DNA of 35,093 nt, taken from positions 1-35,093 of the forward strand of contig CAJCJI010000500.1 of NCBI GenBank assembly GCA_903970595.1, given 5' to 3'. This stretch comes from Verrucomicrobiota bacterium. GTDB taxonomy: Bacteria; Pseudomonadota; Gammaproteobacteria; Nevskiales; Nevskiaceae. The position numbers and the translations under genes were made by a program. The notes beneath the pieces are model-generated. The model was not told the DNA's origin. It made no database searches and saw only the letters and a list, made by a program, of their open reading frames with translations. This document shows, one piece after another, positions 2,673 to 18,674 of this stretch (positions within the stretch are counted from its first letter, which is position 1; every line of letters begins with the position of its first letter).

Positions 2673-2675
2673 CGG

Positions 2676-3407: not shown

Positions 3408-3410
3408 GGC

Positions 3411-4217
3411 TCAGACCACGGTGCCGTCGAGCGGCGAGGAGGCGGAGGCATAACGCCGGCGCGGCATGCGCCCGGCGCGGAAGGCCTGGCGGCCGGCGAT
3501 GACGGCGTGCTGCATGGCGGCGGCCATCAACAACGGGTCCTTGGCCTCGGCGATGGCGGTATTCATCAGCACCCCGTCGCAGCCCAGTTCCATGGCGATG
3601 GCCGCGTCCGAGGCGGTGCCGACGCCGGCATCGACGATGATGGGCACCGTGGCGTTCTCGATGATGCTGAGGATGTTGTAGCGGTTCTGCACGCCCAGCC
3701 CGGAGCCGATCGGCGCCGCCAGCGGCATCACGGCGACGCAGCCCATCTGCTCCAGGCGCTTGGCGATGATCGGGTCATCGCTGGTGTAGACCATCACCTC
3801 GAAACCCTCTTTCACCAGCTGCTCCGCCGCAACCAGGGTGGCGCTCACATCCGGGAACAGCGTCTTGGCATCCCCCAGCACTTCCAGCTTGACCAGCCGG
3901 TGATCGTCCAGCAGTTCACGCGCCAGGCGGCAGGTGCGCAGCGCGTCTTCGGCGGTGTAGCAGCCGGCGGTATTGGGCAGGATGGTATAGCGGTCGGGAG
4001 GCAGCACTTCGAGCAGGTTCGGCTCGCCGGGCTTCTGGCCCAGGTTGGTGCGCCGGATGGCGACCGTGACGATCCGCGCGCCGCTGGCTTCCACCGCCAG
4101 CCGGGTCTGTTCCAGGTCCCGGTATTTGCCGGTGCCGACCAGCAGGCGCGAGGCGTAGGAGCGGCCGGCGATGCGCAGGGCATCCTGCAGCGGCTGAGTG
4201 GGTTCGGGTTTGGTCAT
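3411..4217 (-). CDS. thiG: Thiazole synthase ThiG
   Basis: This 268-residue TIM-barrel enzyme forms the thiazole phosphate of thiamine from deoxyxylulose phosphate, dehydroglycine and the ThiS thiocarboxylate. Visible signatures are '[12 protein letters not shown]' near the N-terminus, 'RRTNLGQ', the probable Schiff-base Lys in '[10 protein letters not shown]', '[20 protein letters not shown]', and the phosphate-binding end '[30 protein letters not shown]'. Length is normal for the family. It follows thiS after about 135 bp and is 3 bp from trmB. No thiamine (TPP) riboswitch was recognised upstream of thiS or thiG. Confidence 0.97.
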
Positions 4218-4352
4218 CGACTAAGGTCCATGTTGCTCGAGGCGAATCCCGCAGCGGGTCGCCTGGAAGGTGAAGAGCTTATCCGTGAATCAATCGCGCC
4301 GGCGACGCTCTCTAAGTATCACATCGCCGCCGCGCGCGGCCAGTGCCGCCGC

Positions 4353-4553
4353 TCAGCCGCCGCCGATGGCGCGCACGATTTCGGCCCGGTCCCCTTCGCT
4401 CAGGCGCACTTCCGGCCAGAGGCTGCGCGGCACGATCGCGCCGTTCAGTTCGATGGCCAGGCGCTGCCCCGCCAGCAGCAGGCTGTCGACCAGATCGGAC
4501 AGGCTGATGGCTTCGGCGACAGCCGTATTTTCGCCGTTGACGACGATCTGCAT
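4353..4553 (-). CDS. thiS: Sulfur carrier protein ThiS
   Basis: This 66-residue ubiquitin-like protein starts 'MQIVVNGENTAV' and ends in the obligatory Gly-Gly ('RAIGGG'), the residue pair that is thiocarboxylated to donate sulfur to ThiG. The internal start at 4553 gives the normal family length. An upstream in-frame ATG at 4610 would add 19 residues (MSGIPVRQAENPSTPTGTA) and has a better Shine-Dalgarno-like GGAG four bases ahead, so the longer form (4353-4610) cannot be excluded. Confidence 0.92.
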   Translation of the reverse strand: MQIVVNGENTAVAEAISLSDLVDSLLLAGQRLAIELNGAIVPRSLWPEVRLSEGDRAEIVRAIGGG

Positions 4554-4645
4554 CGCGGTGCCGGTTGGGGTGGAGGGGTTTTCCGCCTGACGCACGGGAA
4601 TCCCGCTCATTTTACTCCAGCGCGGGCGGGCGCCGCCTGACTGGC

Positions 4646-6097
4646 TCAGGCCCTGCCGGACGCGGCTGCAAGCGTCTGTGCACCGAGGCCGAAATTGTCA
4701 GGCAGCAGTGCCAGGGTGGCGTCCGCGAACAGCTGCGGCAGGCGGTCGGCGCAATCGGCCGGACTCAGTTCGAGCGAGGCGGGATACCCGGCAAAGCCGG
4801 CGGCGGCGAATACCTCCGGCAACTGCGCGAACTGCGGCCGGCGCCGCAGCCGCAGGATTTCGCCCTGGCGGCTGATATCGAATACCGGGCTGACGCTCAG
4901 CTGCGCCGGATTCAGCCAGGGCCGCTGCGGCCTGGCGAAGCCCTTGAACTGCTCGCGGTCGCAGACCATCACGCTGATCTGGCGATCGGTGCGCGCGGCG
5001 ACGGCCACGTTGCGCTCCTCGCCAAAGGTCCAGGTCGGCGCGCCCAGGTATTTGGCTGGCGGACCGGGGATGTCCACCCCCACGTCGCGGCCGGCGGCGC
5101 AGGCGGAGAACAAGGGCAGGTAATCCTCGATGCGGGCAAAGAAATTCTGGCAAAAGCGATAGTGACGATAGCGGTCGATGCGGCGGACACCACCCTGCTG
5201 CTCGTTCCAGATGGAGTCGAACACGGTCCAGCCGGAAGCGGCGGTGACGCGGATCGCCTCCGCGGCGAAGAGCCGCTGCGCCGGTATCTCGGGCAGGCAG
5301 GTGGAAGAAAACACGCCGTCGAACACGCCATCGCGGAAGGGTAGGCCGAACTGCAGGTCGTGGCAGATGAAGTTGCCGTCCCGGTTGGCATATTCCCGGG
5401 TGATCAGCAGGTTGAGGAACTGGCCGTCGATCGACACCAGTTCCACCGGGCGCCCGTCGGCACGCAGGAGATTCTCGAATACGCCCTGCCCGCAACACAG
5501 CGACAGGATGCGGCCGGCCACCGGCAACTGGCCGAGCTGCAGCGCCAGGGCGTTCACCCGCGGCGCGAAAAGGCGTGATACGTAGTAGTCGCCCAGCTGC
5601 GCCAGCTCAACGCCCGCGGTGCCGGGCCGCGCTTGCAGCAGCCGGCGCAGCTTGCGCCGGAGGTGCCGTACGCCGCCCGCGTAGCCGAGCACGCCGTAGC
5701 GTGAATGGGCCGACAGCAGGCGCTCCACCGCGGCATCGAGCCGCGCGGTGCGGCGCGCCGTCAGGCCGATGTAATCGCCGGCGCGGCCTTCGATCAGTTC
5801 CGCCGCCAGCGGCAGATGGCGCCGTATCCAGCGCTGCAATCCGTCGATGTCGTCGCGCCCCAGGTGCTCGACTGCCGCGGCCAGCAAGGGCGTATACGGC
5901 TGCAACTCCTCCTCCGCGCCGCCGTAGCCCTTGGCCAGGCTCAGCAGCAGAACACCGTCCACCACCGGGAAGGCGAAACAGCGGCATTCCAGCAGGCCAT
6001 AGTTCACGCGCCCGGCCGTCGTCCGGCATTCGCGCGCAATGCGGAAGCCGCCGCCGCAGTAGGGGCAGGACAGCTCGGCAATGAGGTGCTTGTCCAT
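4646..6097 (-). CDS. Zinc-ribbon plus SAM-dependent methyltransferase protein, function unknown
   Basis: This protein has 483 residues. The N-terminal 55 resemble the Trm112-like zinc ribbon: 'LSCPYCGGGF' supplies one CxxC pair and 'LLECRCFAFPVVDGVLLL' the second Cys pair followed by the usual [YF]P-x-x-DG-x-x-LL end. A helical region (60-180) follows. Then comes a class I methyltransferase core with 'GRILSLCCGQGVFENLL' (SAM motif I), 'VELVSIDGQ' (acidic motif II) and 'FGLPFRDGVFDGVFSSTCL'. The last 150 residues are not recognisable. A Trm112-like ribbon fused to a methyltransferase is common among enzymes of unknown substrate. It ends 35-92 bp before thiS, depending on the thiS start, so it could head the same transcript, but nothing ties it to thiamine. 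Confidence 0.75.
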   Translation of the reverse strand: MDKHLIAELSCPYCGGGFRIARECRTTAGRVNYGLLECRCFAFPVVDGVLLLSLAKGYGGAEEELQPYTPLLAAAVEHLGRDDIDGLQRWIRRHLPLAAELIEGRAGDYIGLTARRTARLDAAVERLLSAHSRYGVLGYAGGVRHLRRKLRRLLQARPGTAGVELAQLGDYYVSRLFAPRVNALALQLGQLPVAGRILSLCCGQGVFENLLRADGRPVELVSIDGQFLNLLITREYANRDGNFICHDLQFGLPFRDGVFDGVFSSTCLPEIPAQRLFAAEAIRVTAASGWTVFDSIWNEQQGGVRRIDRYRHYRFCQNFFARIEDYLPLFSACAAGRDVGVDIPGPPAKYLGAPTWTFGEERNVAVAARTDRQISVMVCDREQFKGFARPQRPWLNPAQLSVSPVFDISRQGEILRLRRRPQFAQLPEVFAAAGFAGYPASLELSPADCADRLPQLFADATLALLPDNFGLGAQTLAAASGRA

Positions 6098-6419
6098 CGC
6101 TTCAGGCGCGTGGCTGCGGCAAATGCCGCGTCCGCACGAAAAGCCCGGATTCCCGGTCAGTGTTCATCAGGTTTTTTCCTCCGCATCCGTGCTCGCAGGA
6201 AAGCATGCCTGCCCGGTGTTCGTTTGGTTATTGTGTCCGCCTGCCTGGGCCCGGACCATTGGCAAGGCTACCACGACCCGGGACCGTGGGCCGAATATAT
6301 GCCGGCCAAGGTCGGAATTGCCCGACGTCATAAATTCTCGGCCGATGCGCGCCGGGGTCTTGCGCCGGGAGTCGCCTCATCGCTTAAACTTCGAACGGGA
6401 TCCAAGGGGAATAATTTCG
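6098..6419. other. Divergent intergenic region
   Basis: This spacer separates the minus-strand methyltransferase gene from the plus-strand secreted-protein gene. It contains a short hairpin (GCGGCAAATGCCGC near 6115) and, at 6377-6390, the sequence TCATCGCTTAAACT. The latter carries a -10-like TAAACT and resembles the sequence ahead of the SDR gene and of tRNA-Gly. No open reading frame here looks real. Confidence 0.5.
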
Positions 6420-6863
6420 ATGAGATCAGCTTTCGTGGTACTGGCGACGATCGGTCTGGGAATGGGCTTGCCGGCCGTCGCAGCGGGCGAACCGGTCTGG
6501 CTGGATTGCCAGGTGCAATGGTCCAACACCGGCGGCGTAGAGGGCTTCAAGGATTTCGCGGAAGACGACGTCTACGTCTGGGATGCCGCGAAGAGCTCCC
6601 TGGCCGGCTATGACCTCAAAGCCAAGACCCTGCGCACCATCAATGGCGTTCAAGTCGACCAGAAGATCATTTCCTGGCAGGGCGACGCCGCCACCGCGTC
6701 GCATTATCAGATTGATCGCGACAGCCTGGCGATGAATGGGGCCTTTTACCCCGAGCACCACACCAGCGCGGTGACGGACCACAACGGCCGGGCGATCACC
6801 GGGGCAGGTCAGTGCGAAATCACCGAGCCCAAGCCGGTGGTGAAATCCGGCAAGAGGATTTAG
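6420..6863 (+). CDS. Small secreted protein of unknown function (147 aa)
   Basis: The start at 6420 is preceded by an AGGGG about ten bases upstream and gives a clean signal peptide ('MRSAFVVLATIGLGMGLPAVAAGEP', cleavage expected after AVA or AAG). The mature part is about 125 residues, rich in Asp and aromatic residues ('EDDVYVWDAAKSSLAGYDLKAKTL', 'SHYQIDRDSLAMNGAFYPEHHTSAV') and ends 'GAGQCEITEP'. It is probably periplasmic with a small beta-rich fold. Two Cys (in 'WLDCQVQW' and 'GQCEI') could form a disulfide. I do not recognise a family. A frame extends upstream to 6081, but the extension has no coding character. Confidence 0.7.
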   Translation: MRSAFVVLATIGLGMGLPAVAAGEPVWLDCQVQWSNTGGVEGFKDFAEDDVYVWDAAKSSLAGYDLKAKTLRTINGVQVDQKIISWQGDAATASHYQIDRDSLAMNGAFYPEHHTSAVTDHNGRAITGAGQCEITEPKPVVKSGKRI

Positions 6864-6921
6864 CTGGCGGCGGCTGAACAGGGCGCATCCGAGGGTCATG
6901 GTCTGAAACAGGAGTTCACAG

Positions 6922-7275
6922 ATGAATCAGGCGCTCCCTTCCTCCCGCAAGCTGGCCGCGGTGTTGATGCTGATCTCCGGCGTCACCCATGTGGCACAGC
7001 TGGCGGTTTACCCGGCAAAGGCCCACGTCGTCATCGCCGCGCTGTTCGGCGCGCTGTATTTCGCCATCGGCCTGTTTCTGCTGACTCCCAAGCGCGCCGC
7101 ACTGTGGTGCTCGGCCCTGTTTCCCCTGATCGGCGGCATCCTTGGCATTTTGCGCTTCATCAAGCACCCCAATCCGTTCAGCGTGTTCCACGTCATCGTC
7201 GATATAGTGGTGATCGCGATCAGCGTGCGCCTGCTGCTGCGGCCCGCGGCGCCGGTCGTGACGAACCGGGGGTGA
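6922..7275 (+). CDS. Small integral membrane protein (117 aa), function unknown
   Basis: An AGGAG nine bases ahead supports the ATG at 6922. About four hydrophobic helices are visible, near residues 11-30, 36-53, 60-77 and 88-105 ('VFHVIVDIVVIAISVRLLL'). Length and topology suggest a small inner-membrane protein. No catalytic or binding motif can be seen. It follows the secreted-protein gene by 58 bp and may share its transcript. Confidence 0.68.
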   Translation: MNQALPSSRKLAAVLMLISGVTHVAQLAVYPAKAHVVIAALFGALYFAIGLFLLTPKRAALWCSALFPLIGGILGILRFIKHPNPFSVFHVIVDIVVIAISVRLLLRPAAPVVTNRG

Positions 7276-7311
7276 CGGCCGGGCACCGCCTTTGTGTATC
7301 GTTCATGAGGA

Positions 7312-7334
7312 ACCGGAAATGGGCCGCTTCCGGT
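7312..7334. repeat. Inverted repeat upstream of the DUF1214 gene
   Basis: ACCGGAA and TTCCGGT form a perfect 7-bp stem around a 9-base loop, 20 bp ahead of the next start codon. There is no T-tract. It could be a weak terminator of the preceding gene or an operator. Confidence 0.3.
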
Positions 7335-7354
7335 AGCGCTGGAGGAGAGGCACG

Positions 7355-7945
7355 ATGACTCGCTTTTTGGCGCCTGTGCTTGCCGTGCTGGCCGGACTGA
7401 TCGTCGGCATCGGCTCGGCCCTGCTGGTCCTGGGCAACGGGCAACTGCTCGGCCGCTCGGAGAAGGACTACTGGTTCGGCAACAAGAATGCAGGGGCTGC
7501 GGCGGCCGACCCCTATACCCGCGGCATCGTTGCGAACATCGGTCTGTTGGCCATGAACCGGAACGAGTCGGTGTATTTCCATCGCTACAAGGACGACCAC
7601 GGCGCGCCGCTGCACGAAGGCTGCGTCTACGAGATGAAAGGAGGCAAATTGCCCGCGCGCTGGTGGTCGGTCACCATTTACGCGGCGGACGAATTCCTGC
7701 CGATGAACAAGGACCAAGCTTCGTCGCTGGACGCCACCCGCATCGCGGGACAGGCGGACGGCACTTGGACCGCGCGCCTCGCCGACGATCAGGCCGGCGC
7801 CGCCAACTGGATCTCCACGCGCTCCGCCGGCACCTTCAGCCTCAGCCTGCGGATGTACAACCCGGAGGATGCGGCGCGCGACGATCCGATGAGCATCGAC
7901 TACCCCAGTCTGAAATTGCTGTCCTGCACCGGGGGCTCGACATGA
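7355..7945 (+). CDS. DUF1214 domain membrane-anchored protein
   Basis: This 196-residue protein has a GGAGGAG Shine-Dalgarno seven to nine bases ahead. An N-terminal hydrophobic anchor (about residues 5-30) is followed by a periplasmic DUF1214 domain with the typical blocks 'ARWWSVTIYAADEFLPMNKDQASSLDATRI' and 'NWISTRSAGTFSLSLRMYNPEDA'. In many proteobacteria DUF1214 and DUF1254 domains occur together, fused or adjacent; here they are split into two consecutive genes with an ATGA overlap (7942-7945). Biochemical function is not established. Confidence 0.82.
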   Translation: MTRFLAPVLAVLAGLIVGIGSALLVLGNGQLLGRSEKDYWFGNKNAGAAAADPYTRGIVANIGLLAMNRNESVYFHRYKDDHGAPLHEGCVYEMKGGKLPARWWSVTIYAADEFLPMNKDQASSLDATRIAGQADGTWTARLADDQAGAANWISTRSAGTFSLSLRMYNPEDAARDDPMSIDYPSLKLLSCTGGST

Positions 7946-8466
7946 ACCGCATCGGCAAGCTTTTCGCGCTGGCGCTGCTGGTGGCGGTGGCCGCTCACCT
8001 GGCCACCGTGCTTGCCGCGCCCTACGTATTGATGAACGCCGCGATGAAGCGCATCAGCAAGGACGGCACCAAGATCAACCAGTGGATTCATGCCCCGCCG
8101 ACCACGGAGCAGTCCCGCCGCGTGGTGCGGCCCTCCCCGGACATCGCCTACTCGGCCTGCGTCTATGACCTTGCCGCCGGCCCGATCCACGTCACAGCCG
8201 CGCCCTGGGGCGACTACCTGTCGGTATCGGTGTTCGGGCAAAACAGCGACAACATCTACGTCGTCGACGACCGCCAGTCACCCCAGGGCATGGATCTGCT
8301 CATCGTGCGCAAGGGTGCACCGCATCCGCCCGGAGCCGCGGTAGTGGTGGAATCTCCAAGCCGCCGCGGCATCGTGTTGCAGCGCCGCCTGGCGCCGACG
8401 CAGGAACGTTGGGATGCTGCCGACGCGGCACGCCGGCACGACATATGCGGCCCGCTCAAGGGTTGA
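7942..8466 (+). CDS. DUF1254 domain membrane-anchored protein
   Basis: This 174-residue protein starts at 7942, overlapping the stop of the DUF1214 gene by four bases, so translation is coupled. Residues 1-35 form a signal anchor. The DUF1254 signature lies in 'SPDIAYSACVYDLAAGPIHVTAAPWGDYLSVSVFGQNSDNIYVVDDRQ', which matches the family's D-x-x-Y-s-x-x-x-x-D-l-x-x-GP pattern. The two split proteins probably act as a pair at the periplasmic face of the inner membrane. The role is unknown. Confidence 0.8.
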   Translation: MNRIGKLFALALLVAVAAHLATVLAAPYVLMNAAMKRISKDGTKINQWIHAPPTTEQSRRVVRPSPDIAYSACVYDLAAGPIHVTAAPWGDYLSVSVFGQNSDNIYVVDDRQSPQGMDLLIVRKGAPHPPGAAVVVESPSRRGIVLQRRLAPTQERWDAADAARRHDICGPLKG

Positions 8467-8611
8467 ATCGGCGGAATCTGCACTTGGTGCGCAGCGTACC
8501 GATGAGCGGTACAGAATACCCGGACCGACAGCTTTGACCGGCGCGCGGCGGCAACATAGCCTTGTCTTCGAGCAGCCGAAGGACCGCCTGGCAGCGACCG
8601 GAGTCATTTTA

Positions 8612-8773
8612 ATGTTAAGCAGAATCGGTTGGATTTCAGTCAATCAGCGTGGCGTTACCGCAACCGAGTACGCGCTGATCATCGCGGTAGTCGCTTTGAT
8701 CATGCTGATCGGAGCGCAGTTGCTGGGCACGAATCTGAACCTCGTATTCAATTCCGTCGCCGGCGACGTCTAG
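8612..8773 (+). CDS. Flp/Fap-type (type IVb) pilin, orphan
   Basis: This 53-residue prepilin has a short basic leader ending in Gly14, with the mature protein starting 'VTATEYALIIAVVALIMLIGAQLLG'. Glu at mature position 5 and Tyr at 6 are the Flp hallmark, and the hydrophobic helix follows directly. A GGAG eight bases upstream supports the ATG at 8612; a longer frame from 8414 overlaps the DUF1254 gene and lacks coding character. Flp pilins are normally processed by TadV and assembled by Tad machinery, none of which is in the window. It may be used by a tad locus elsewhere or be a stray copy. Confidence 0.88.
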   Translation: MLSRIGWISVNQRGVTATEYALIIAVVALIMLIGAQLLGTNLNLVFNSVAGDV

Positions 8774-9219
8774 GCCCCGTCTGCACGCATCCGTCACGGG
8801 ATTGCCCGAAAGCGGCGACCCGTGTCGGAAGGCTCGCTGTGGAAGAAGGCCGGGATCGCCGGATCTGCAGAAGATGAGCGCCTGAGGCTCATCGGGCCAG
8901 GCTGCCCGGTACCTGCCACTTCATCGGTGCCGCCTGCTTGCCCGCAGGCCCACTCTGCCCCGGAAATGGCGCAGGCAGGGCAGGTGCAGGCGGAAAAATG
9001 ACTGCCGACCGTTTAAACTCCGCCTGAGGATACGGGGATGTAGTTTCGTGGCGGAACGGCGGCTTCACCAGAACTCAGGCGCATGAACCACCGCGGCATG
9101 GATTCCCGCGAATCCTGGGGCATGCTGGAACCCGGATCACCCGCTCCTCAAGCGCTTTGAACAGGCGTGCAGCCGGTCCGGCGGCGCTCCTTATCCATGA
9201 CCTGCGAGCGGCATAAAGA
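8774..9219. other. Intergenic region with hairpin and tRNA relic
   Basis: After the pilin gene there is a perfect 7-bp hairpin at 8873-8893 (GATGAGC, 7-base loop, GCTCATC), a second small hairpin near 8933-8950 (GCCTGC/GCAGGC), and a degenerate tRNA-Gly at about 9034-9147, listed separately. No other gene is visible. Confidence 0.55.
9034..9147 (+). pseudogene. Degenerate tRNA-Gly relic
   Basis: The 5' half aligns with the intact tRNA-Gly(CCC) at 17923: 'GATGTAGTTTCGTGGCGGAACGGCGGCTTCACCAG' matches the D-arm and 5' anticodon arm. The last 11 bases of similarity (9137-9147, TCACCCGCTCC) are identical to the acceptor 3' strand at 17985-17995. Between the halves there are about 40 extra bases and no proper anticodon or T arm. 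The bases ahead (CGTTTAAACT at 9010-9019) also resemble the sequence ahead of the intact gene (CGTTTAGACT). It cannot fold as a tRNA. Confidence 0.65.
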
Positions 9220-10806
9220 TTGAACCTGCAAAGCGGCTCTGCCCCTGAACGCTTGAGCTTTGCGTCCGGACTCCGGCGCCATGCCCACATCATCGCGGTC
9301 ATGGCCGTTGTCGCTCCGTTGTATTGGCTGTGGACCTGGACCGGGCAGGTGGGCGACATCGGCTACGATGCCGTCGACTACCTGCTGATGGCGCAGCATC
9401 TGTCTCCCTATCTGGGTCACGGCGCGGTGATCGACCAGGCCGCGGCATTGAGCCGTTTTCCGCCTTTATATCCGCTGATCCTGGCCTGGTTCGGAGCGGC
9501 GGGGCCCGATTTGCACCGGGCGCACCTGGTCACCACCGCGTTCCTGCTCCTGGCCCTGCCGGCCTGGTACGCCTGGCTGCGACGGCAGCAGCTTGCGCCT
9601 GCGCAGTCGGCCCTGATGGTATTGGCCTTTGCCGCCGCGCCGGGGACCTGGTTCACCGGGCTCAATCTGCATTCGGAATATCCCTACCTGTTGTGGAGCA
9701 TCCTGGCCCTGCTGTTCCTGGAGCGATACCGCAGTGAGGGCCGGGACGAAAACCTCTACGCCGCGGCACTGTTCGTGGTGTGCGCCGCGCTCACCCGCAC
9801 CGTCGGCGCGGTACTGTTCGTGCCATTGATCATGGCGGCCTTGCGCGGGCCGCGGCGCTCCGGCATGCTGGCGCTGATGATGGCGGCGGCGCCGTTGCTG
9901 GTCTGGCATCTGCTCCACCGGCCGAGTGACGGTTATGACACGGCGCTTTTCACGTACTACGGCATGGATTCGCTGCGGATTTTCCGCACGCAGCTGTCTA
10001 CGGAATTGCCGGCACTGTGCAGCGCCTTTGCCGAAAACCTGACCACCTCCCTTGCGCTGTACCCGATGGTCTATGTCATAGGGGCAGTATGCACTGCCTG
10101 CGGCGCATGGCGTACCGTACGCTTGCGTACTGACGGCGTCTATCTGGCGGCCTATTTTTCGGTGCTCCTGATCTGGCCGTATCCCAATGTGGCGTCGCGC
10201 CTGGTCTGGGCCGTGCTGCCGGTGCTGCTCGCCCAGCCGTTGCTGGCCCTGGCCGAAATGCGTCGCGAAATCCCGAAGGCGCGATACCTTGCGACCTGCA
10301 CCGCGGCATTTGCAGGCGTCGTGCTGTTATCCGCGCTTCCCGCCATCGCGCAAACGGCAGAACGTTATCGCATGGCCGACGACGACGATTTTCCCGCGGC
10401 GCGAGGCCTCGAGGGCTGGTATGCCGCGGATCCCCGGCACGCCGTGCATCGGGTTTTCTCCCAATTAATGTTCGTGCAGGCGCTACAGCAGATTCCGGAC
10501 TTCGTTCCAGAATCCGACTGCGTCATCGCAGTGCGCACGGACCTGGTGAATTACTACGCACAGCGGCGCAGTGTGTATCCTCCGTTGAATTCGACCCAGG
10601 ACCCGAATTTCATGGAGACAATGCGCGCCACCGGCTGTCATTACGTTTTCATGTACAACGCAGCTGACGGGCGCTTTCCGGTACCCTTGCACCCCATGCA
10701 GCGCCTGGCCGGGCATTTCCGCATGCTCATCTATGACAATTTGCCGGATCCCGCTTCCGGTGAAGCGACGAGCCGGGTGATCTGCATGCTGGTCAGGCTG
10801 GACTGA
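9220..10806 (+). CDS. GT-C-like polytopic membrane protein, possible glycosyltransferase (copy 1)
   Basis: The protein has about 528 residues with many transmembrane helices in the first 385 and a soluble C-terminal part ending 'VICMLVRLD'. The first periplasmic loop 'GQVGDIGYDAVDYLLMAQHLSPY' and the following 'RFPPLYPLILAWFG' resemble the acidic loop and PPLYP segment of GT39/ArnT-type GT-C glycosyltransferases, which use lipid-linked sugars. The start is uncertain: TTG at 9220 sits just after an in-frame stop at 9214, and the next ATG (9301) would cut into the first helix. It is clearly paralogous to the next gene. The substrate is unknown. Confidence 0.72.
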   Translation: MNLQSGSAPERLSFASGLRRHAHIIAVMAVVAPLYWLWTWTGQVGDIGYDAVDYLLMAQHLSPYLGHGAVIDQAAALSRFPPLYPLILAWFGAAGPDLHRAHLVTTAFLLLALPAWYAWLRRQQLAPAQSALMVLAFAAAPGTWFTGLNLHSEYPYLLWSILALLFLERYRSEGRDENLYAAALFVVCAALTRTVGAVLFVPLIMAALRGPRRSGMLALMMAAAPLLVWHLLHRPSDGYDTALFTYYGMDSLRIFRTQLSTELPALCSAFAENLTTSLALYPMVYVIGAVCTACGAWRTVRLRTDGVYLAAYFSVLLIWPYPNVASRLVWAVLPVLLAQPLLALAEMRREIPKARYLATCTAAFAGVVLLSALPAIAQTAERYRMADDDDFPAARGLEGWYAADPRHAVHRVFSQLMFVQALQQIPDFVPESDCVIAVRTDLVNYYAQRRSVYPPLNSTQDPNFMETMRATGCHYVFMYNAADGRFPVPLHPMQRLAGHFRMLIYDNLPDPASGEATSRVICMLVRLD

Positions 10807-10879
10807 AACCGGCTCTTTGATCGCCACAAATTCAATTCCGCGACATTGAGGTGATTTCTATTGGAATTCGTGATTAAAA

Positions 10880-12457
10880 ATGCAAATGTTCAACTCAACA
10901 ATGCGGGCCTCGCTGATCGATCTCCTCCAGCGACACTATTCGATCGTGCTGGTATTGACCTTTGTTGCGCCCTGGTATCTGTTGTGGATGTCGCAAGCTG
11001 TGCTGGGGGATATCGGCACCGACGGCCCGGAATATCTTCTGATGGCGCAGCACTATTCGCCATTCGGCACACAAAACCCGGTGTATCAGCACGCAGCCAC
11101 TTATACCCGGTTTCCGCCGATGTACCCGCTCGTGCTCGCCTTGACGGGTGCAGCTGACGATCTTGCGCGCGCTCATCTGGTAACCTTCTGCTTCTTCCTG
11201 CTTGCGCTCCTGGCCTTCTACATTTATTTGCAGCGCATGGAGATGCCGGCCAAGCAGTCCTCGTTATTGGTATTGCTGTTCGCGGCCTTGCCGGGAAGCT
11301 GGGCGCTGGGTCTGTTCATCCAATCGGAATATCTGTATTTGACCTTCAGCCTGCTGGCGTTGACGCTGATGGCCATGGTGCGGCCGGGCGCGCATCGAAA
11401 TGTTCTTGTCGCAGCGGCTCTGATCACGGCTATTGCCATATTGACTCGCACCGTCGGCATCAGCTTGCTGGTTCCGTTGGTGCTGGTTTTGGTGCGGGCG
11501 CGCGTGCCGTTGCGCGATGCCTTGACCGCCATATCAATCGCGCTGTTTCCGCTGTTGGCGTGGAATCTTGTCCACGAATCCCACTCCGGCTATGTGGATG
11601 CCCTGCACCAGGGCTATGATTCCGATGGATGGATGTTCCTGGTCAGGCAGCTTGCGGTCGAGTTACCGGCCTTGCACAAGGGTTTTGGCGACAATTTTCT
11701 GCATGACCAGGACCTGCGTCCGCTGGCTGATGCGCTGGGCGTGCTATGCATGGCGGCCACGGCGTGGCGGGCGATCAAGCTTAAACCGGACGCAATCTAC
11801 ATTCTCGCGCAATCGGCAATTCTTCTCGTCTGGCCTTATCCCGATGAGGCGCGGCGCCTCTTGTGGGTGCTATTGCCGCTCATTCCCGTGCAGCCGTTGC
11901 TCGGTTACAGCGAATCAACTTTAATGGAGCGCCGAGGTGCGGTGACAAGCGCCTTTGCTGCCGGATTGGCCGCGGTAATCCTGACGATGACCCTCCCGGC
12001 CCTGGCATTTGCCGCGGATCGTTACCGCGCGGCGGCTTATTTCGATCCCCCCGGAGCCGGAAGCTTCCTGCTTTGGTATCGCTCAGACAGGATTTCCGAC
12101 CAGGAGGCGGTGGCCAACCAGATCTTGATCGGTAATGCACTGCTTGAGATTCGGGAGTACGTTCCCGCATCCGATTGCGTTATTTCGACCCGTCCGGACA
12201 TGGTCGACTATTTCGGCTGGCGCCGGAGCGTACCACCGCCCCCGGATTCCATTTCCGAACCATACTTCACGGCAGCAATTCGCGGGACCGGGTGTCATTA
12301 CATCTTCGGCATGATCGGTGTCAGCGAGCGCTACCCTAGGCCGTTTTATCCTCTGCCGCGGCTTGAGTCCAATATCGAGCCTTTATTCGTCAGCACCGCG
12401 CACGCGCTCATGGGAGGGGAGCATCCTCCAGTTGCCGTTCTGGCAAGATTACCCTGA
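10880..12457 (+). CDS. GT-C-like polytopic membrane protein, possible glycosyltransferase (copy 2)
   Basis: This 525-residue paralogue of the preceding gene is collinear over its whole length. Its matching blocks are 'LGDIGTDGPEYLLMAQHYSPF', 'RFPPMYPLVLALTG', 'ILTRTVGISLLVPLVLVLV', 'WPYPDEARRLLWVLLPLIPVQPLLG' and 'VPASDCVISTRPDMVDYFGWRRSV'. The two share topology: about ten helices, then a C-terminal periplasmic portion. The codon use looks less GC-rich than neighbours. Two or three in-frame ATGs lie close together at the start (10880, 10886, 10901). Family assignment to GT-C enzymes is by loop pattern only; the role could be modification of an envelope polymer. Confidence 0.74.
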   Translation: MQMFNSTMRASLIDLLQRHYSIVLVLTFVAPWYLLWMSQAVLGDIGTDGPEYLLMAQHYSPFGTQNPVYQHAATYTRFPPMYPLVLALTGAADDLARAHLVTFCFFLLALLAFYIYLQRMEMPAKQSSLLVLLFAALPGSWALGLFIQSEYLYLTFSLLALTLMAMVRPGAHRNVLVAAALITAIAILTRTVGISLLVPLVLVLVRARVPLRDALTAISIALFPLLAWNLVHESHSGYVDALHQGYDSDGWMFLVRQLAVELPALHKGFGDNFLHDQDLRPLADALGVLCMAATAWRAIKLKPDAIYILAQSAILLVWPYPDEARRLLWVLLPLIPVQPLLGYSESTLMERRGAVTSAFAAGLAAVILTMTLPALAFAADRYRAAAYFDPPGAGSFLLWYRSDRISDQEAVANQILIGNALLEIREYVPASDCVISTRPDMVDYFGWRRSVPPPPDSISEPYFTAAIRGTGCHYIFGMIGVSERYPRPFYPLPRLESNIEPLFVSTAHALMGGEHPPVAVLARLP

Positions 12458-12498
12458 TCGGTTCCGGCACTGAACTCCACCCCTGCTCAGCCCGAATC

Positions 12499-13750
12499 AT
12501 GAAACAGCAGTCCGCAGAGCTCGAACAATGGCTGGCTCGCGGGCTTGAGTTGCAGCGCGCTGGGCATCGGCGCGTTATGCGGAGGCTTTCGCGAGCTATT
12601 CCAGCGCGCTGGTCGTCGCGCCCGATCGCGCGGAAGCCCTGATTAATGCGGCGGTTTGCCTGCTTGCCTTGCGCGAGCCGGCGCGCGCATGACTTGTTGC
12701 TGCGCGCCATTGAATGCGCGCCGACTTCAGCGGATGCGCACAATGCCTTAGGCACGGCACGGTATGAGCTGGGCGAGTTCGAAGCGGCGGCGGCGTCTTT
12801 CGAGCGCGCTCTGGCGCTCGACCCGCAACTGGCGGATGCGTATTACAACCTGGGGAACGCACTGCAGATGCGCGGCCGCTTGGAAGAGGCTGGCCTGCGG
12901 TACGACGAGGCGCTTCGGCGCAAGCACGGGTTCAATGAAGCGCAGTTGAACAAGTCGCTGGTGCTCTTGACCCTGGGCCGCTACGCGGACGGCTGGGCGC
13001 TCTACGAATCGCGCTTGCGCGGCGCCGACCAGCCCGGAGTGCCGGTTATACGCTCGCGGCGCTGGGATGGCCGGGCCTTTCCGGAGCGGAGTTTGCTGAT
13101 TCACTCGGAGCCGGGGCCTGGGCGATGCCTTGCAGTTCGTGCGCTTCGCCGCCTGGTGCAAGACGCGCGGCGGCACCGTCACGGTCCAGTGCCAAAGGCC
13201 GCTGCTGCGCCTGCTCCGCACCTGCCCTGGCGTGGGCGCGTGGCCGGCGACGAGCTTGCAGGTCGGCCTGGTCTGGGCGGGTGCGCCGCGCGAGTTCCGA
13301 CCCGCCGACTACCTGATCGACCGGCGGCGCAGCATGGGCTTGGCGCGCATGCGGCCGCTGCTGAACGTGGCGGGCGTGCGTTTCCACAGCCTGCAACTTG
13401 GCCAGGCCGCCCGGCAAATCGACGAACTGGACCTGCGCGGAATTCTGCTGGATCACTCGGCGGACGTCGGGGATTACATGGATACGGCGGCCATCATCGA
13501 ACAACTCGATCTGGTGATCGCCGTCGATCCCTCGGTGGTCCACGCCGCCGGCGCCCTCGGCCGCCCGGTGTGGGTGCTGTCGCGCTTCGACGCCTGCTGG
13601 CGGTGGTTGCGCAACCGGGAAACCAATCCCTGGTATCCGACTGCCCGCGTCTTCGGCCAGCCGGCGCCGGGTGACTGGGATACGGTGATCGCAAATGCGG
13701 CAGAGGCGCTAGCCAGGGTCGCCGCGGCCAAGCGCGGCGCCGGAACTTAG
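12499..13750 (+). pseudogene. TPR / GT9-fold glycosyltransferase pseudogene, multiply frameshifted
   Basis: Read across frames, the sequence encodes an N-terminal TPR region ('ADAHNALGTARYELGEFEAAAASFERALALDP', 'ADAYYNLGNALQMRGRLEEA') followed by a C-terminal glycosyltransferase-like domain ('GDALQFVRFAAWC', 'LQVGLVWAG', 'DTAAIIEQLDLVIAVDPSVVHAAGALGRPVWVLSRF', 'WYPTARVFGQPAPGDWD'). The frame breaks near 12565-12573, returns near 12681-12688, and breaks again near 13111-13120 (GGGGCCTGGGC). About 70 residues expected between 'LRTCPGV' and 'LQVGLVWAG' are missing. Such TPR-transferase proteins are often large and found near polysaccharide genes. The copy is dead unless the indels are sequencing errors, which the internal deletion argues against. 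Confidence 0.85.
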
Positions 13751-13807
13751 TGGTTCAAAGCTCACAATCCTTGATCCCGGTGCTGGCGGGATATACCCGA
13801 CGCCGCC

Positions 13808-15073
13808 TCATCCGCCGCTGGGGGATGGCGAGGGGACGTCATATTGGTTTCCGGAGACACCGACCGCGATGCCATAAGAATAGCTGCCGCGCACCGTATC
13901 GATCGGCGGCGCAGGCAACAGGTTGACCGGGCAAGCCGACTGGTTGCCGGAGCAGGAGAACTGGCCGGAATTCGTGAGGCCGTAAAACATGGGGCCAACG
14001 TCGGCACCCGTCTGTCCGGAATCGCTGAGCAGGACAGGGTTGTAAGTGTTCCCGTCGGCGTCGCCCGCGATGCCCGCCGAACTGACGAAGGGGTTGAAAT
14101 TGCCGTCGTCCAACAGTGGGAACGTCACGCTGTTGCCGAAGCAGCGCTGCGGGGAGGGCTGCAAACAAAAGACCGACACCGCTAGCGTCGCGGGCGACGA
14201 GGTGCTGGCGTTCGCCCCGCCGATATACAGCGTCATGCCGTCCTGAGCGATGGCGAGCGGACCGCCGGCGGCGGCGTCGGGCACCTGGCCGAGCAGGCTT
14301 GCGGTTACGTCGGTCTGGCTGCCGGGGTTCTGCGCACAGGTGGCGGAACAGGCGAACAACTCATCGCCGCCGAATTCATGATTCTGCTCGGTGACGTATA
14401 CCGTATCCTGGACGTCGACGGCCAGCCCGCCGTAGTAGACCGGCTCCACCGTCGAGGTATACACCGTGGTCATGGCCGGCCCCGGTCCGACGTTCTCCGC
14501 GAAGCTGACCACCGTTCCCGCGGTGGCGCCCAGCGAAGTGGCGAAGACTGCGGGGTTGCCGTTGATGCCGGGCGCATTGCCATCGGTCGTCAGCCATTGA
14601 CCGCCGGGGATGGTTCCGCCTACCTGCTCACACGTGCCTGTCACGGGAAAGACATACGTCGGATCGGGTGAATGACCAACGGCCGGGCAGATGAAGAAAT
14701 CGGCGTCGAGGGGGTTGACCGGGTCGCTTGCCAGATAAAGCAAATCGCCGCCAGTGTCGATCGCCACGCTCAGCACGTTGGGAGCGGAGAGAGTCTGTAC
14801 TGGCATCGGAGCCGACCCGGAAACTCCGGTCGTTGAATCCGGCAAGATGTAGAGTTGTATGGTCCCGTTGGCGGCGATGGCCATGTACTGCGCCGTTTTG
14901 CCGTCCACGGGTGAGCCGAACAGGTTGACGCCGGGTGTGCTTGGGTTGCAGCCAGCCAGCAGGCTGTATCCCAGAGCCGCCGCCAGCCCGCCTAAGGGCG
15001 GCAGCGCGCGGCGCGCGGTATTGCGCCCGGCAGGCGTTGCGGTTCCGCCCGGTAATGCGATGCCTTGATTCAT
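13808..15073 (-). CDS. Secreted lipoprotein, probably beta-rich, function unknown (421 aa)
   Basis: The ATG at 15073 has GGGGAG eight bases ahead. A long basic leader is followed by a hydrophobic stretch and the lipobox 'SLLAGC' (lipidated Cys42). The rest is rich in Gly, Ser, Thr, Asp and Pro. It has repeated short beta-strand-like blocks such as 'YMAIAANGTIQLYILPDS', 'VLSVAIDTGGDLLYLASDP', 'GGLAVDVQDTVYVTEQN', 'GPLAIAQDGMTLYIGGANA' and 'AGIAGDADGNTYNPVLLS', which suggest a beta-propeller (NHL/SMP-30-like). Paired Cys appear in several loops. The frame is open further upstream to 15340 but that part looks non-coding. Neither neighbour gives a functional clue. Confidence 0.75.
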   Translation of the reverse strand: MNQGIALPGGTATPAGRNTARRALPPLGGLAAALGYSLLAGCNPSTPGVNLFGSPVDGKTAQYMAIAANGTIQLYILPDSTTGVSGSAPMPVQTLSAPNVLSVAIDTGGDLLYLASDPVNPLDADFFICPAVGHSPDPTYVFPVTGTCEQVGGTIPGGQWLTTDGNAPGINGNPAVFATSLGATAGTVVSFAENVGPGPAMTTVYTSTVEPVYYGGLAVDVQDTVYVTEQNHEFGGDELFACSATCAQNPGSQTDVTASLLGQVPDAAAGGPLAIAQDGMTLYIGGANASTSSPATLAVSVFCLQPSPQRCFGNSVTFPLLDDGNFNPFVSSAGIAGDADGNTYNPVLLSDSGQTGADVGPMFYGLTNSGQFSCSGNQSACPVNLLPAPPIDTVRGSYSYGIAVGVSGNQYDVPSPSPSGG

Positions 15074-15700
15074 GTCCTGGTCTCCCCTGATTAGCCGAAT
15101 TTCTGGCCCGCGGACCAGCCCTGAAATGAGCCCTCGAATACTTCGACTCACCCTGGATCGCGACCACAGTGGCCGCATCGCCAGCCCCGGTCTGTGCGCT
15201 GCACCGCTGAACGCACCGTCATGGTTCTCCCAGCTGCCGTGATGCGGTTCCGGCAAAACATCAGAAAGCGGAGATAGCGGTAGAGAAGATGCATCTCGGC
15301 GGCTGCAGATGGCCGGCATTGGAGCAGTGTGGGATGCCACTCGATCAACCGGGGTCAGTACTGCGCCATCGCCGGTTCATCGTTTGAACCAGTCGCAGGG
15401 CAGGCGGGTGTAGTTCAATGGTGGAACTGCGGCTTACCAAGCTGCCAGCGTGGGTTCGCCTCCCACTACTTGCTCCAGGTTTCCGCCTGGTTTCCGAGGT
15501 TTGATCCGTTCCGGGTGCGGGCCCTGGACCCGTGGTTCTGCGATGCGTGAACACAAGCGGGTGCATTCGCGTATCCGTTCAAACATACGCTATCGCATTG
15601 AGGGTATAACCCAATATTTCGGTATGGGTTCGTCGCTTAGACTTTCCTGATCGCGATGTCAGCGCAGCTCACCAAAAAAAGCGAACCACGGAGAGAGACG
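15074..15700. other. Divergent intergenic region with tRNA-like gene
   Basis: This lies between the minus-strand lipoprotein gene and the plus-strand SDR gene. It carries the tRNA-Gly-like sequence 15404-15477 and a following small hairpin (CCAGG TTTCCG CCTGG then TTT, 15475-15493). Nearer the SDR gene there is an inverted repeat around 15609-15631 (AACCCA...TGGGTT) and a TCGTCGCTTAGACT motif at 15630-15643 with a -10-like TAGACT. No protein gene is visible. Confidence 0.5.
15404..15477 (+). tRNA. tRNA-Gly-like sequence with anticodon ACC, possibly a pseudo-tRNA
   Basis: The sequence is 74 nt with encoded CCA, 64 of 74 bases identical to the intact tRNA-Gly(CCC) at 17923-17996. All stems still pair. 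The acceptor GCGGGTG/TACTTGC holds three G-U pairs, the anticodon stem GCGGC/GCTGC one, and the T-stem GTGGG/CCCAC is perfect. Changes in conserved single-stranded positions are anticodon CCC to ACC (15436-15438), the T-loop TTCGATT to TTCGCCT (loss of A58), and one D-loop A to G. The ACC anticodon would read Gly codons but is very unusual in bacteria. Loss of A58 argues against a normal translational tRNA. The -10-like element ahead (TAGACT in the intact copy) is changed to TGAACC. Confidence 0.55.
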
Positions 15701-16519
15701 ATGTTCGACTATGCCAAGGCCTTTCGGGTAGATGGCAAGGTTGCGCTGGTTTCGGGCGGTGCACGCGGGCTCGGCGCCGAGATGTGCCGGGCCCTGGCCC
15801 AGGGGGGCGCCGCCGTTCTGGTGACAGACGTTCTTGAAAAAGAAGCCCGCGGCGTGGTCGAGGAGCTCAAGGCTTCGGGTGCGCACGCCGACTTTCTCAA
15901 GCTCGATGTGACGGCCGAATCGCAGTGGGAAGAAGCAGTGGGAACGGCGACCCGCAAGTTGGGCGGGCTCGACGTCCTGGTCAACAACGCCGGCATCGAG
16001 ACCATGCAGTTCCTCACCGAAACCAGTGTGGAGGAGTTTCGGCGCATTCTCGATATAAACGTGACCGGAACCTTCCTGGGCTGCAAGCATGCGGTGCGCG
16101 CCATGCGTCCGGGCGGCGCGGCAGGCAAGGGCGGCTCGATCATCAACCTCTCGTCCATCGCCGGCTTGATTGGAGTGACGGCGCTGGGCGCCTACAACGC
16201 CTCCAAGGGCGCGGTGCGGATCCTGACGAAGTCGGTTGCCGTCGAATGCGGCCAGCTCAAAACAGGCATCCGTTGCAATTCGATCCATCCGGGCGTTGTG
16301 TGGACGGATATGGGCAGGCATTTCCTGCAGAACTTTGTGGACCTGAAGCTGGTTCCGGACCTGGCGACGGCCGAGTCCTCGTTCAAGGCTGCCCATCCGA
16401 TCGGCGAATTCGGCCAGCCGCGGGATATCGCCTCGGCCACGCTGTTCCTTGCTTCCGACGCCTCGCGCTGGATCACGGGATCCGAGATGGTCGTCGACGG
16501 CGGCTATACCGCAACATAG
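15701..16519 (+). CDS. Short-chain dehydrogenase/reductase (SDR)
   Basis: This 272-residue NAD(P)-dependent oxidoreductase of the classical SDR type starts at 15701, with GGAG seven bases ahead; an upstream frame from 15656 lacks a good ribosome site. The cofactor motif is 'SGGARGLGA' (residues 18-26), followed by Asp43 after the second strand ('VLVTDV', favouring NAD). Other motifs are 'NNAG' at 95-98, catalytic Ser151/152, and Tyr165/Lys169 in 'YNASK'. The C-terminal 'ITGSEMVVDGGYTA' is standard. Relatives act on hydroxysteroids, cyclic alcohols or acyl groups, and the substrate cannot be told. The gene stands alone, followed by a strong hairpin. Confidence 0.93.
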   Translation: MFDYAKAFRVDGKVALVSGGARGLGAEMCRALAQGGAAVLVTDVLEKEARGVVEELKASGAHADFLKLDVTAESQWEEAVGTATRKLGGLDVLVNNAGIETMQFLTETSVEEFRRILDINVTGTFLGCKHAVRAMRPGGAAGKGGSIINLSSIAGLIGVTALGAYNASKGAVRILTKSVAVECGQLKTGIRCNSIHPGVVWTDMGRHFLQNFVDLKLVPDLATAESSFKAAHPIGEFGQPRDIASATLFLASDASRWITGSEMVVDGGYTAT

Positions 16520-16545
16520 GACATAAAATCGGCGTTTATCCCTAG

Positions 16546-16592
16546 GCTCAGCGCCGGCAAAGCCGCCTGTCGAACCTTTGCCCGCGCTGGGC
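16546..16592. terminator. Large hairpin downstream of the SDR gene
   Basis: Arms 16546-16562 and 16576-16592 form a 17-bp stem with one C-C mismatch and one wobble pair around a 13-base loop. It begins 27 bp after the SDR stop. No T-tract follows on either strand, so it may be a Rho-aided terminator, an mRNA 3' stabiliser or a REP-like element. Confidence 0.5.
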
Positions 16593-16657
16593 ATGCGCAG
16601 TTTAGGTTCGGAGCGGCAGAGGAGGTGCGTGCGATTTGCGCCCGCGAGGTCATCCGC

Positions 16658-16703
16658 TTGCAAATCACCCATGTGCGCTTTAAAGTGAACCATATGGTTC
16701 ACT
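16658..16703 (+). promoter_or_regulatory. Promoter and start-codon operator of the ArsR-type gene
   Basis: -35 TTGCAA (16658-16663) and -10 TAAAGT (16681-16686) are 17 bp apart. The ATG at 16694 lies seven bases after the -10 box, so a leaderless transcript is predicted. A perfect 20-bp palindrome (16684-16703), AGTGAACCAT and its mirror ATGGTTCACT, is centred on the CATATG containing the start codon. This is the expected kind of site for a dimeric ArsR repressor acting on its own gene. Confidence 0.65.
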
Positions 16704-17056
16704 ATCAAGTCCGCCTCGACACAACGTTCGCCGCGCTCTCCGATGCCACCCGACGCGGCGTATTGGAGCAACTCGGGGGTTCGGACGCTTCAATCACCGA
16801 CCTTGCCCAAAGGTTTCACATGACCCTCACGGGCATGAAGAAGCATGTCAGCGTCTTGGAGCAGGCAGGGCTCGTGACCACGGAGAAGGTGGGGCGCGTA
16901 CGAACCTGCAAGCTCGGATTGCGCCGGCTGGAAGAAGAGGCCGCCTGGATCGAGCGGCACCGCCAACTGTGGAGCGCACGCTTCGACGCGCTGGACGAGC
17001 TTGTCGAGCACTTGAAATGTAAGGAGAAGGCAGATGCCCAAACAAAAAGAAGGTAG
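16694..17056 (+). CDS. ArsR-family repressor (ArsR/SRPBCC pair)
   Basis: This 120-residue winged-helix protein carries 'ATFAALSD ATRRGVLEQL'-type opening (here 'TTFAALSDATRRGVLEQLGG'), recognition helix 'TLTGMKKHVSVLEQAGLV' and wing 'TEKVGRVRTCKLG'. The C-terminal 'EEEAAWIERHRQLWSARFDALDELVEHLK' is typical of the ArsR members paired with SRPBCC proteins. No metal-binding Cys cluster of the classic ArsR type is present. The start at 16694 lies in the centre of the palindrome; an upstream frame to 16625 lacks a ribosome site. It overlaps the next gene by 23 bases. Confidence 0.93.
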   Translation: MVHYQVRLDTTFAALSDATRRGVLEQLGGSDASITDLAQRFHMTLTGMKKHVSVLEQAGLVTTEKVGRVRTCKLGLRRLEEEAAWIERHRQLWSARFDALDELVEHLKCKEKADAQTKRR

Positions 17057-17534
17057 TCCCGCCGCCATGAACCGCACCGCCGTGGAACGCAAGTCCGACC
17101 GCGAACTCGTCGTGACGCGAACATTCAATGTCCCGGCGCACATCGTCTTCGAAGCGTGGAGCAAACCCGAATTGTTCAAGCAGTGGTGGGTTCCGAAGTC
17201 GGCGGGCATGTCGCTGCTCTCGTGCGACATGGATATTCGCACCGGGGGCGTGTATCGCCTCGTGTTCCGCCATCCGGCCTTCGATCAACCGATGGCGTTC
17301 TTCGGCACGTACAAAGAAGTAACGCCGCACAAGCGCCTCGTGTGGACGAACGAAGAAAGCGATCAGGGCGCCGTGACCACGGTGACGTTCGAAGAAAATG
17401 CCGGCAAGACGCTGGTCACCCTGCACGAACTCTACCCCACAAAAGCGGCCCTCGACGAAGCCCTCGCCGGTTCGGCGGAAGCCCTGCCCGAACAGTTCGC
17501 GCAGCTGGATGAGTTGCTCGCAGGCAGATCGTGA
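17034..17534 (+). CDS. SRPBCC (AHSA1/START-like) domain protein
   Basis: This 166-residue protein has a strong GGAG ribosome site seven bases ahead, inside the end of the ArsR gene. The SRPBCC fold shows as 'RELVVTRTFNVPAHIVFEAWSKPELFKQWWVP', then 'DMDIRTGGVYRLVFRHP', 'FFGTYKEVTPHKRLVWTNE', 'TTVTFEENAGKTLVTLHELYPTKAALDEAL'. The family has a hydrophobic pocket for small ligands. ArsR/SRPBCC gene pairs are very common and probably sense or handle a hydrophobic compound, but the ligand is usually unknown. Confidence 0.92.
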   Translation: MPKQKEGSPAAMNRTAVERKSDRELVVTRTFNVPAHIVFEAWSKPELFKQWWVPKSAGMSLLSCDMDIRTGGVYRLVFRHPAFDQPMAFFGTYKEVTPHKRLVWTNEESDQGAVTTVTFEENAGKTLVTLHELYPTKAALDEALAGSAEALPEQFAQLDELLAGRS

Positions 17535-17922
17535 CCACACCGCGGCCACCGGTGTATGGAATCCGACCAACCGATCTGATCGAATAGTTGACACTGGACA
17601 GCGATACAGATAGCACCCATGCCATCGCGGAAATTCCCTTGCATGGCAACCCGCCTGTAACTATGTGCAGCGCGACACAAAGCGGCAGGCCGCATTCTTC
17701 CTCACTGTGACGGCATTTGGGTCATTCGCCATGTAAAGAAATTCTTCGGGAAGGGTCACCAGGGCGGGCTCCTGTGAACCCATCAGTAAATGTTCCAACC
17801 TACAGCCCAGACAGCACCTTTACTGCGCAAGCATCCATACGCAACCGTATTGACGGGCTGACGGAGCCAGCCCAGTAATTCACCCGGTGCGCGGTCATCG
17901 TTTAGACTATCCGCACGGACGC
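17535..17922. other. Intergenic region upstream of tRNA-Gly
   Basis: No gene is visible. A consensus -35 TTGACA at 17588-17593 has no convincing -10. A GGGCTG/CAGCCC hairpin lies near 17854-17873. The tRNA promoter occupies the right end. Confidence 0.5.
17879..17908 (+). promoter_or_regulatory. Probable promoter of tRNA-Gly
   Basis: -35 TTCACC (17879-17884) and -10 TAGACT (17903-17908), spaced 18 bp, lie 14 bp ahead of the first tRNA base. The TCATCGTTTAGACT block is echoed ahead of both tRNA-like copies and before two protein genes. Confidence 0.45.
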
Positions 17923-17996
17923 GCGGGTGTAGTTCAATGGTAGAACTGCAGCTTCCCAAGCTGCTAGCGTGGGTTCGATTCCCATCACCCGCTCCA
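17923..17996 (+). tRNA. tRNA-Gly(CCC)
   Basis: This is a complete 74-nt tRNA with encoded CCA. The acceptor is GCGGGTG/CACCCGC, the D-stem GTTC/GAAC, the anticodon stem GCAGC/GCTGC with loop TTCCCAA (anticodon CCC at 17955-17957), and the T-stem GTGGG/CCCAT with loop TTCGATT. It is close to E. coli glyU in sequence. It reads GGG codons. Two hairpins follow directly, the second with a T-rich tail. Confidence 0.97.
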
Positions 17997-18674
17997 GACA
18001 ACAAACTCCCAGGTCATCCTGGGGTTTCCGTCCAGGGGAGTGGAAATATCCCTGGATATTTTTGCGCTTGGCCGCATCGCTTATCCGGTGCCGTCCCGGC
18101 TGGCCTGAGGGTGGGGTGGATCAGGCGCGCACAAGCAGGCGCCGGAGATACGCGCATACGGTCAGGAATGGTCATTTGAGGCAGCTTGCTGCCCTGATTC
18201 TGGTTTGGGTAAAGAATCGTAAATTATCCGGGCCGGGGGAAGCTCCGATCCGATCGCCTGTCCCGGCATGGGCTGCGGGCGATCCGCACGGTTCCTTGGT
18301 CAAGCCGTATCGGGTTGCCGGGCTTTCTCTTGCTGCTGCAGTTGCCAATCCGCAAAGTGGTTCATTTGTCAGTCTGACTTCAAGCATCAGCCTGAGGCTT
18401 CATCAGGCCTATGTGGCGCAAAACATGCTTCCAAAAATCACAAGATGAGTTACACTCTTAATGTCAAGGAATAGATTCTGAGGGTTTAAGTCGATAAAGC
18501 CGGAGGCCCTTGTTCGCGGCGTGCTTCCTGCGCGCAGGGTGGGTATCGCGGCTGCTGGGCGGCTGCTGGATTGGGTGGTGTGGTGCCAGCTGTTTGGGAC
18601 TTAGGGCCGGGCGTCTGCGGGACATAAGAAAGACGCTTGGAAATTCAGGATACAAAAAGCAGGGAAATGTGCCA
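17997..18674. other. Long intergenic region between tRNA-Gly and the OmpA-family gene
   Basis: Apart from the tRNA terminator the region holds no convincing gene. Small hairpins occur, for example GCCTGA/TCAGGC near 18390-18410. The segment 18425-18500 is AT-richer than its surroundings (TTACACTCTTAATG) and may carry the promoter of the OmpA-family gene. Confidence 0.4.
18031..18063 (+). terminator. Terminator of tRNA-Gly
   Basis: TCCAGGG (18031-18037) pairs with CCCTGGA (18050-18056) and is followed by TATTTTT. A smaller hairpin, CCCAGG TCAT CCTGGG, lies just upstream at 18008-18023. Confidence 0.65.

Follow-up and report, generated by a model that had tools for sequence, protein, structure and literature searches.

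We analysed a window of 35,093 nucleotides, the whole of contig CAJCJI010000500.1 as presented here, which belongs to a genome assembly of 5.15 Mb in 534 contigs with 86.9% completeness and 3.7% contamination. The RmuC protein encoded in the window matched three loci in genome_contigs, two of them in Nevskia MAGs (89-90% identity) and a distant one at 37%, so that the organism probably belongs to Nevskia or stands close to it. ARAGORN called two tRNA genes in the window, tRNA-Gly(acc) at 15404-15477 and tRNA-Gly(ccc) at 17923-17996, and no further tRNAs. The two are here referred to as the ACC copy and the CCC gene. They lie 2.5 kb apart (start to start) with the ACC copy in front, and the gap of 2.4 kb between them holds three protein genes, of an SDR-family dehydrogenase, a winged-helix regulator that we read as ArsR-like, and an AHSA1/SRPBCC protein (Table 1). 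The initial annotation had described the first tRNA as a tRNA-Gly-like sequence with anticodon ACC, in agreement with ARAGORN and also with Rfam, where the ACC copy scores 49.1 bits against RF00005 vs 71.2 bits for the CCC gene (gathering cut-off 29). Outside one contig that carries a tRNA array, 49.1 bits is the second-lowest above-cut-off tRNA score in the genome, the lowest being that of a tRNA-Ser with 47.8 bits.

Table 1. Features of the two tRNA-Gly copies and of the genes between them (positions in the window).
Feature	Position	Strand	Basis or remark
Remnant of duplicated tRNA promoter	15377..15403	+	Upstream extension of the tRNA homology; three-way alignment including the CCC genes of this genome and of G006
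Hexamer corresponding to the parent's -10 box, TGAACC	15385-15390		No TAnnnT there
tRNA-Gly(ACC), very probable pseudogene	15404..15477	+	74 nt, CCA encoded; ARAGORN, Rfam 49.1 bits, difference and pair tables
Changes A21G and A58C of the ACC copy	15423; 15459		
Anticodon of the ACC copy	15436-15438		
G-U pairs of the ACC copy	15406:15471 (3:70), 15407:15470 (4:69), 15410:15467 (7:66)		
SDR-family dehydrogenase gene	15701..16519	+	Pfam adh_short_C2 (scanned from 15668); start set by hand
Winged-helix regulator gene	16694..17056	+	Pfam HTH_20 (scanned from 16625)
AHSA1/SRPBCC gene	17034..17534	+	Pfam AHSA1
Parent promoter region	17895..17922	+	
Probable parent -10 box, TAGACT	17903-17908		Common to G006 CCC
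Parent tRNA-Gly(CCC), intact	17923..17996	+	ARAGORN, Rfam 71.2 bits; same sequence in G002, G004, G006 and G014

The tRNA parts of the two copies are 86% identical and differ at 10 of 74 positions, namely A21G, A29G, C34A, T44C, A58C, T59C, T65C, C66T, C69T and C70T from the CCC gene to the ACC copy (standard tRNA numbering, read off the cloverleaf by hand). Half of these changes fall in stems (A29G, T65C, C66T, C69T, C70T). All five are one-sided, four of them leading to G-U pairs and one turning a G-U into a G-C pair, and compensatory double changes are absent among them. As a result, 21 of the 21 cloverleaf pairs remain Watson-Crick or G-U, and the CCA end is encoded and intact. The initial annotation had counted the same ten differences, had stated that every stem change keeps pairing and had reported the loss of A58 from the T-loop. 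Our difference and pair tables agree on all these points, with C58 found in place of the A and, in addition, the D-loop change of A21 to G.

Of 44 tRNAs outside the array the ACC copy is the only one without A58, which is present in the other 43 and also in 32 of the 34 ARAGORN predictions of the array. The acceptor stem contains no G-U pair in 34 of the 44, one in nine, and three in the ACC copy only. The predicted fold energy is -31.4 kcal/mol for the CCC gene (z -3.9; none of 200 shuffles equal or better) vs -25.8 kcal/mol for the ACC copy (z -0.6; 47 of 200 shuffles as good). Five of the six bacterial glycine determinants (U73, G1-C72, C2-G71, G3-C70, C35 and C36, as given in PMC9976931) are retained in the ACC copy, while G3-C70 has become G3-U70.

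The homology between the two copies is not confined to the tRNA. It spans promoter and gene, from 27-28 bp upstream to just beyond the gene end, with 84 of 103 positions matching. The ACC copy has G27-C43 as in the CCC gene, where the TCC gene has T27-A43, and no sequence nearer to it than these CCC and TCC genes was found in the genome. From the promoter homology and the G27-C43 pair we therefore take the ACC copy as a duplicate of the CCC gene together with its promoter. Since the CCC gene is identical in four relatives (Table 1), all ten changes are most simply placed on the copy.

Within the duplicated promoter, the hexamer TAGACT is shared by the CCC genes of our genome and of relative G006; by sequence and position it is the probable -10 box of the parent, and the ACC copy has TGAACC instead. 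In a simple scan, a clear -10 box was likewise absent from several further tRNAs of the genome, some of them inside operons. A generic sigma-70 scan of 15250-18150 returned no promoter, and it is uninformative because the intact parent CCC gene was missed as well. Divergence between the copies amounts to 9 of 28 columns in the promoter stretch vs 10 of 74 positions in the tRNA body, and the lower divergence of the body could reflect some constraint on it. Between the ACC copy and the SDR gene, the stretch TCGTCGCTTAGACTTTCC at 15630-15647 has three mismatches to the CCC promoter at 17895-17912, and these are the only two sites in the genome with the shared pattern (at most one mismatch). The match is weak, as equally high scores were reached by 54 of 2000 shuffles and by 4 of 318 overlapping window tiles, so that 15630-15647 is taken only as a possible promoter of the SDR gene. 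As this promoter-like stretch follows the tRNA copy, the idea of the ACC copy as a leader element of the downstream SDR gene was rejected, with the reservation that the match is weak.

We further asked how often all pairs would survive by chance, using 200,000 simulated sets of 10 substitutions under each of six mutation models. No pair was broken in 0.24% of the sets without transition bias, 0.9% with 60% transitions, 2.3% with 80% transitions (as observed) and 6.2% with transitions only, and in 8.8% and 2.3% when the observed types of change were applied to this strand or strand-symmetrically. For sets with exactly five stem hits the corresponding values were 0.12%, 0.64%, 2.1%, 6.3%, 4.3% and 1.1%. 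With simulated chances of 0.2-9%, the retention of pairs is only mildly unusual and not compelling. It is the main, though weak, point in favor of a function. Luck combined with transition bias explains it best; possibly a functional period after the duplication helped to keep the pairs. Moreover, a copy with broken pairs would have had a smaller chance of being noticed at all.

Eight of the ten changes fall at sites that are invariant in the CCC genes of relatives, where 8.4 are expected at random (P(X<=8)=0.51); the set comprised 32 CCC hits obtained with ARAGORN in relatives (10 distinct sequences, with some loci present twice) and our own CCC gene. When TCC genes were added, seven of ten changes were at invariant sites with 7.7 expected. 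Stem and non-stem positions were hit at rates that do not differ (5/42 and 5/32; Fisher P 0.74), and nine of the ten new bases are absent from the compared CCC sequences. The changes are thus placed at a random rate relative to invariant sites, which indicates relaxed constraint, although every stem pair has survived.

We then searched for the ACC copy among relatives. When the copy and its flanks were searched against 61 genomes, 47 showed matches, and the first 29 relative loci that were read carry CCC (23) or TCC (6). Within the same genus, none of 29 matches has ACC (16 CCC and 13 TCC, across 16 of 17 relatives), and relative G005 of this genus gave no match. The only other genome with three matches is G048, where two are CCC and the third is TCC. 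Across the order (85 genomes), a pattern with A34 (at most two mismatches allowed) found 40 matches in 31 genomes, of which 39 are CCC or TCC and only the query is ACC; the remaining 54 genomes gave no match, and a diverged ACC gene in them may have escaped the pattern. Exact ACC patterns had no hit in genome_contigs (contigs of at least 3 kb, our own genome possibly excluded) or in viral_contigs. A phage or viral origin was rejected, as there is no exact match in viral_contigs and none in phages at E 1e-5. The loci orthologous to ours in relatives G006, G008, G003 and G002 each contain a single tRNA, and a further, weaker tRNA match is absent from them at E values up to 5, the contig of G002 having only 454 bases before its tRNA. 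With a single tRNA at these four loci, an older copy shared with relatives was also rejected.

The CCC gene precedes an OmpA-like gene, and the gene order downstream is shared with G002, G003, G008 and, within its contig, G006. Upstream of the CCC gene, the region 4640-17923 is variable, with a different length in all three relatives compared: the CCC gene is separated from the homologue of the gene at 2469-4640 by about 0.16 kb (G002), 2.6 kb (G006) or 3.6 kb (G008), as against 13 kb in our genome. Window genes within 4640-17923 had no tblastn match at that place in these relatives at 1e-10, except for an SDR match of 29% in G008. The same region includes two adjoining and paralogue-like ORFs of 528 and 525 aa at 9220-12457 (DNA repeats of 71-76% identity), the first with a PMT_2 match under the Pfam cut-off. 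The ACC copy also falls inside this variable region.

Based on these results, the ACC copy can be regarded with good confidence as an ordinary duplicated pseudogene of tRNA-Gly(CCC), full length and fairly young, which judging from its sequence is most likely not transcribed, or very little, and without function. We propose that a segment made up of tRNA-Gly(CCC) and some 28 bp or more of its promoter was copied into the variable region upstream of the parent, through a tandem duplication followed by insertion or through a dispersed duplication. Being redundant, the copy has drifted: its -10 hexamer is decayed, it no longer has the conserved tertiary bases A21 and A58, A stands at the wobble position, and three C-to-T changes giving G-U pairs have weakened the acceptor stem. 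The GCC (three genes), TCC and CCC tRNAs outside the array can, under wobble rules, read all glycine codons without the ACC copy. Against the pseudogene stand the 21 of 21 intact pairs and CCA end, and the fact that ARAGORN and Rfam still call a tRNA above the cut-off. The initial annotation had offered two explanations, a recent pseudogene that kept its pairs by chance and a tRNA-like RNA kept for another role. The former is favored by the lost -10 hexamer, A58 and A21, the random placement of changes and the failure to find an ACC homologue, whereas the latter found no conservation in the searches made. It had also held that the absence of both transcript and conservation would speak against a kept RNA, and of these two the absence of conservation is what we found in the relatives and databases searched.

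For a tRNA-like RNA that is transcribed and retained for a role outside translation, there is a precedent in the low-scoring tRNA-Gly(UCC) of S. aureus with altered D- and T-loops, which according to PMC8007984 serves the synthesis of pentaglycine bridges. The D- and T-loop changes of the ACC copy resemble it, every stem pair is kept and divergence is lower in the tRNA body than in the adjoining promoter. However, the -10 hexamer is decayed, conservation was not found in the genus, the order, genome_contigs or the orthologous loci, the changes are random relative to invariant sites and the fold is no better than shuffles, so we consider such a role very unlikely. An alanine identity was also weighed, in which the ACC copy would be half-way to a new identity, with a glycine anticodon and a G3-U70 pair (plus G4-U69) that make it chargeable by AlaRS, and glycine codons would sometimes be read as alanine. 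The pair arises from C70T and is an alanine identity element; among the 44 non-array tRNAs it occurs only in two tRNA-Ala genes and the ACC copy, and human tRNA-Gly(CCC) mutants with G3-U70 can be misacylated as described in PMC11415595. But of the bacterial alanine set given in PMC9976931 (A73, G2-C71, G3-U70, G4-C69, G20) only G3-U70 is present, the ACC copy having U73, C2-G71, G4-U69 and U20 by hand numbering. Because these other alanine determinants are absent, five of six glycine determinants are kept and the -10 hexamer is gone, this identity appears extremely unlikely. It is just as improbable that an expressed ACC tRNA with G3-U70 would cause low-level Gly-to-Ala mistranslation or serve as a donor of alanine or glycine in non-ribosomal reactions.

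Other explanations concern the origin of the copy or its reality. The duplicate could be a scar left at an attachment site by an integrative element with the tRNA gene as its target, and would even then be a pseudogene; the interval from the upstream gene (ending at 4640) to the tRNA indeed varies from roughly 0.16 to 13 kb. Integration, as described in PMC9897764, repeats part of a tRNA gene, whereas in the window the repeat comprises the full-length tRNA and its promoter, and a Pfam scan of 20 window ORFs (out of 109 mechanical ORFs of at least 100 aa) revealed no integrase. On these two grounds the scar is not favored, and we rate it as very unlikely. An assembly artefact, by strain mixing or misassembly, might be suspected in a genome of 534 contigs with 3.7% contamination, three of these contigs carrying the tRNA-Gly(GCC)/Cys pair. 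However, the two copies share a single 35 kb contig and have flanks that differ outside the homologous stretch, their divergence extends into the promoter, and no sequence nearer to the ACC copy than the CCC and TCC genes was found in the genome; we regard an artefact as extremely unlikely.

Other tRNAs of the genome deserve mention here. The three contigs with tRNA-Gly(GCC) followed by tRNA-Cys(GCA) (C275, C393 and C363) differ in the spacing of the two genes. The dense tRNA array lies outside the window on contig C472 and comprises 34 ARAGORN predictions, many of them 5-10 nt apart and one overlapping its neighbour on the opposite strand, with 28 Rfam matches above the cut-off. It is followed by genes for Band_7/SPFH, RtcB RNA ligase and radical SAM proteins. 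In Anabaena, a plasmid tRNA operon and rtcB are reported to be under the same repressor, and a slipin gene rises with the operon (PMC10272220). By analogy with this co-regulation, the array on C472 may be of the stress-response type, with RNA repair.

Compared with bacterial tRNA-Gly(CCC) (RF00005), the ACC copy is alike in length, cloverleaf, CCA end and U73, and its parent is on the same contig, but it differs in A34 for C34, A21G, A58C, the three acceptor G-U pairs and the decayed -10 hexamer. It shares with the non-canonical and partial prokaryotic tRNA genes described in PMC9897764 that a tRNA-like sequence is counted as a gene by software, but unlike those partial genes it is of full length with a promoter remnant and is not an attachment-site or CRISPR fragment. 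The same paper urges caution with tRNAscan-SE 2.0 isotype scores under about 85. In Pseudomonas fluorescens SBW25 an additional tRNA copy likewise came from within the genome; there, tandem duplications of 45-290 kb raise the dose of an intact tRNA (PMC7661048), whereas here a single small copy has decayed. As for the anticodon, tRNA-Gly(ACC) is listed in PMC8007984 among eight tRNAs missing in all domains. According to PMC6720975, almost all organisms have excluded A34 tRNA-Gly, which was a poor substrate of the eukaryotic deaminase, with 767 ACC predictions among 13,347 eukaryotic tRNA-Gly sequences in the database. The copy carries this anticodon but is probably not a working tRNA, and the rule of the missing tRNA-Gly(ACC) is therefore unbroken.

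As a pseudogene, the ACC copy matters little by itself. It shows that software can count an intact-looking cloverleaf as a gene and that an annotated ACC glycine tRNA is not necessarily a working one. An expressed copy would be a naturally occurring case of the tRNA-Gly(ACC) that bacteria are reported to lack, and a candidate for a tRNA that mistranslates.
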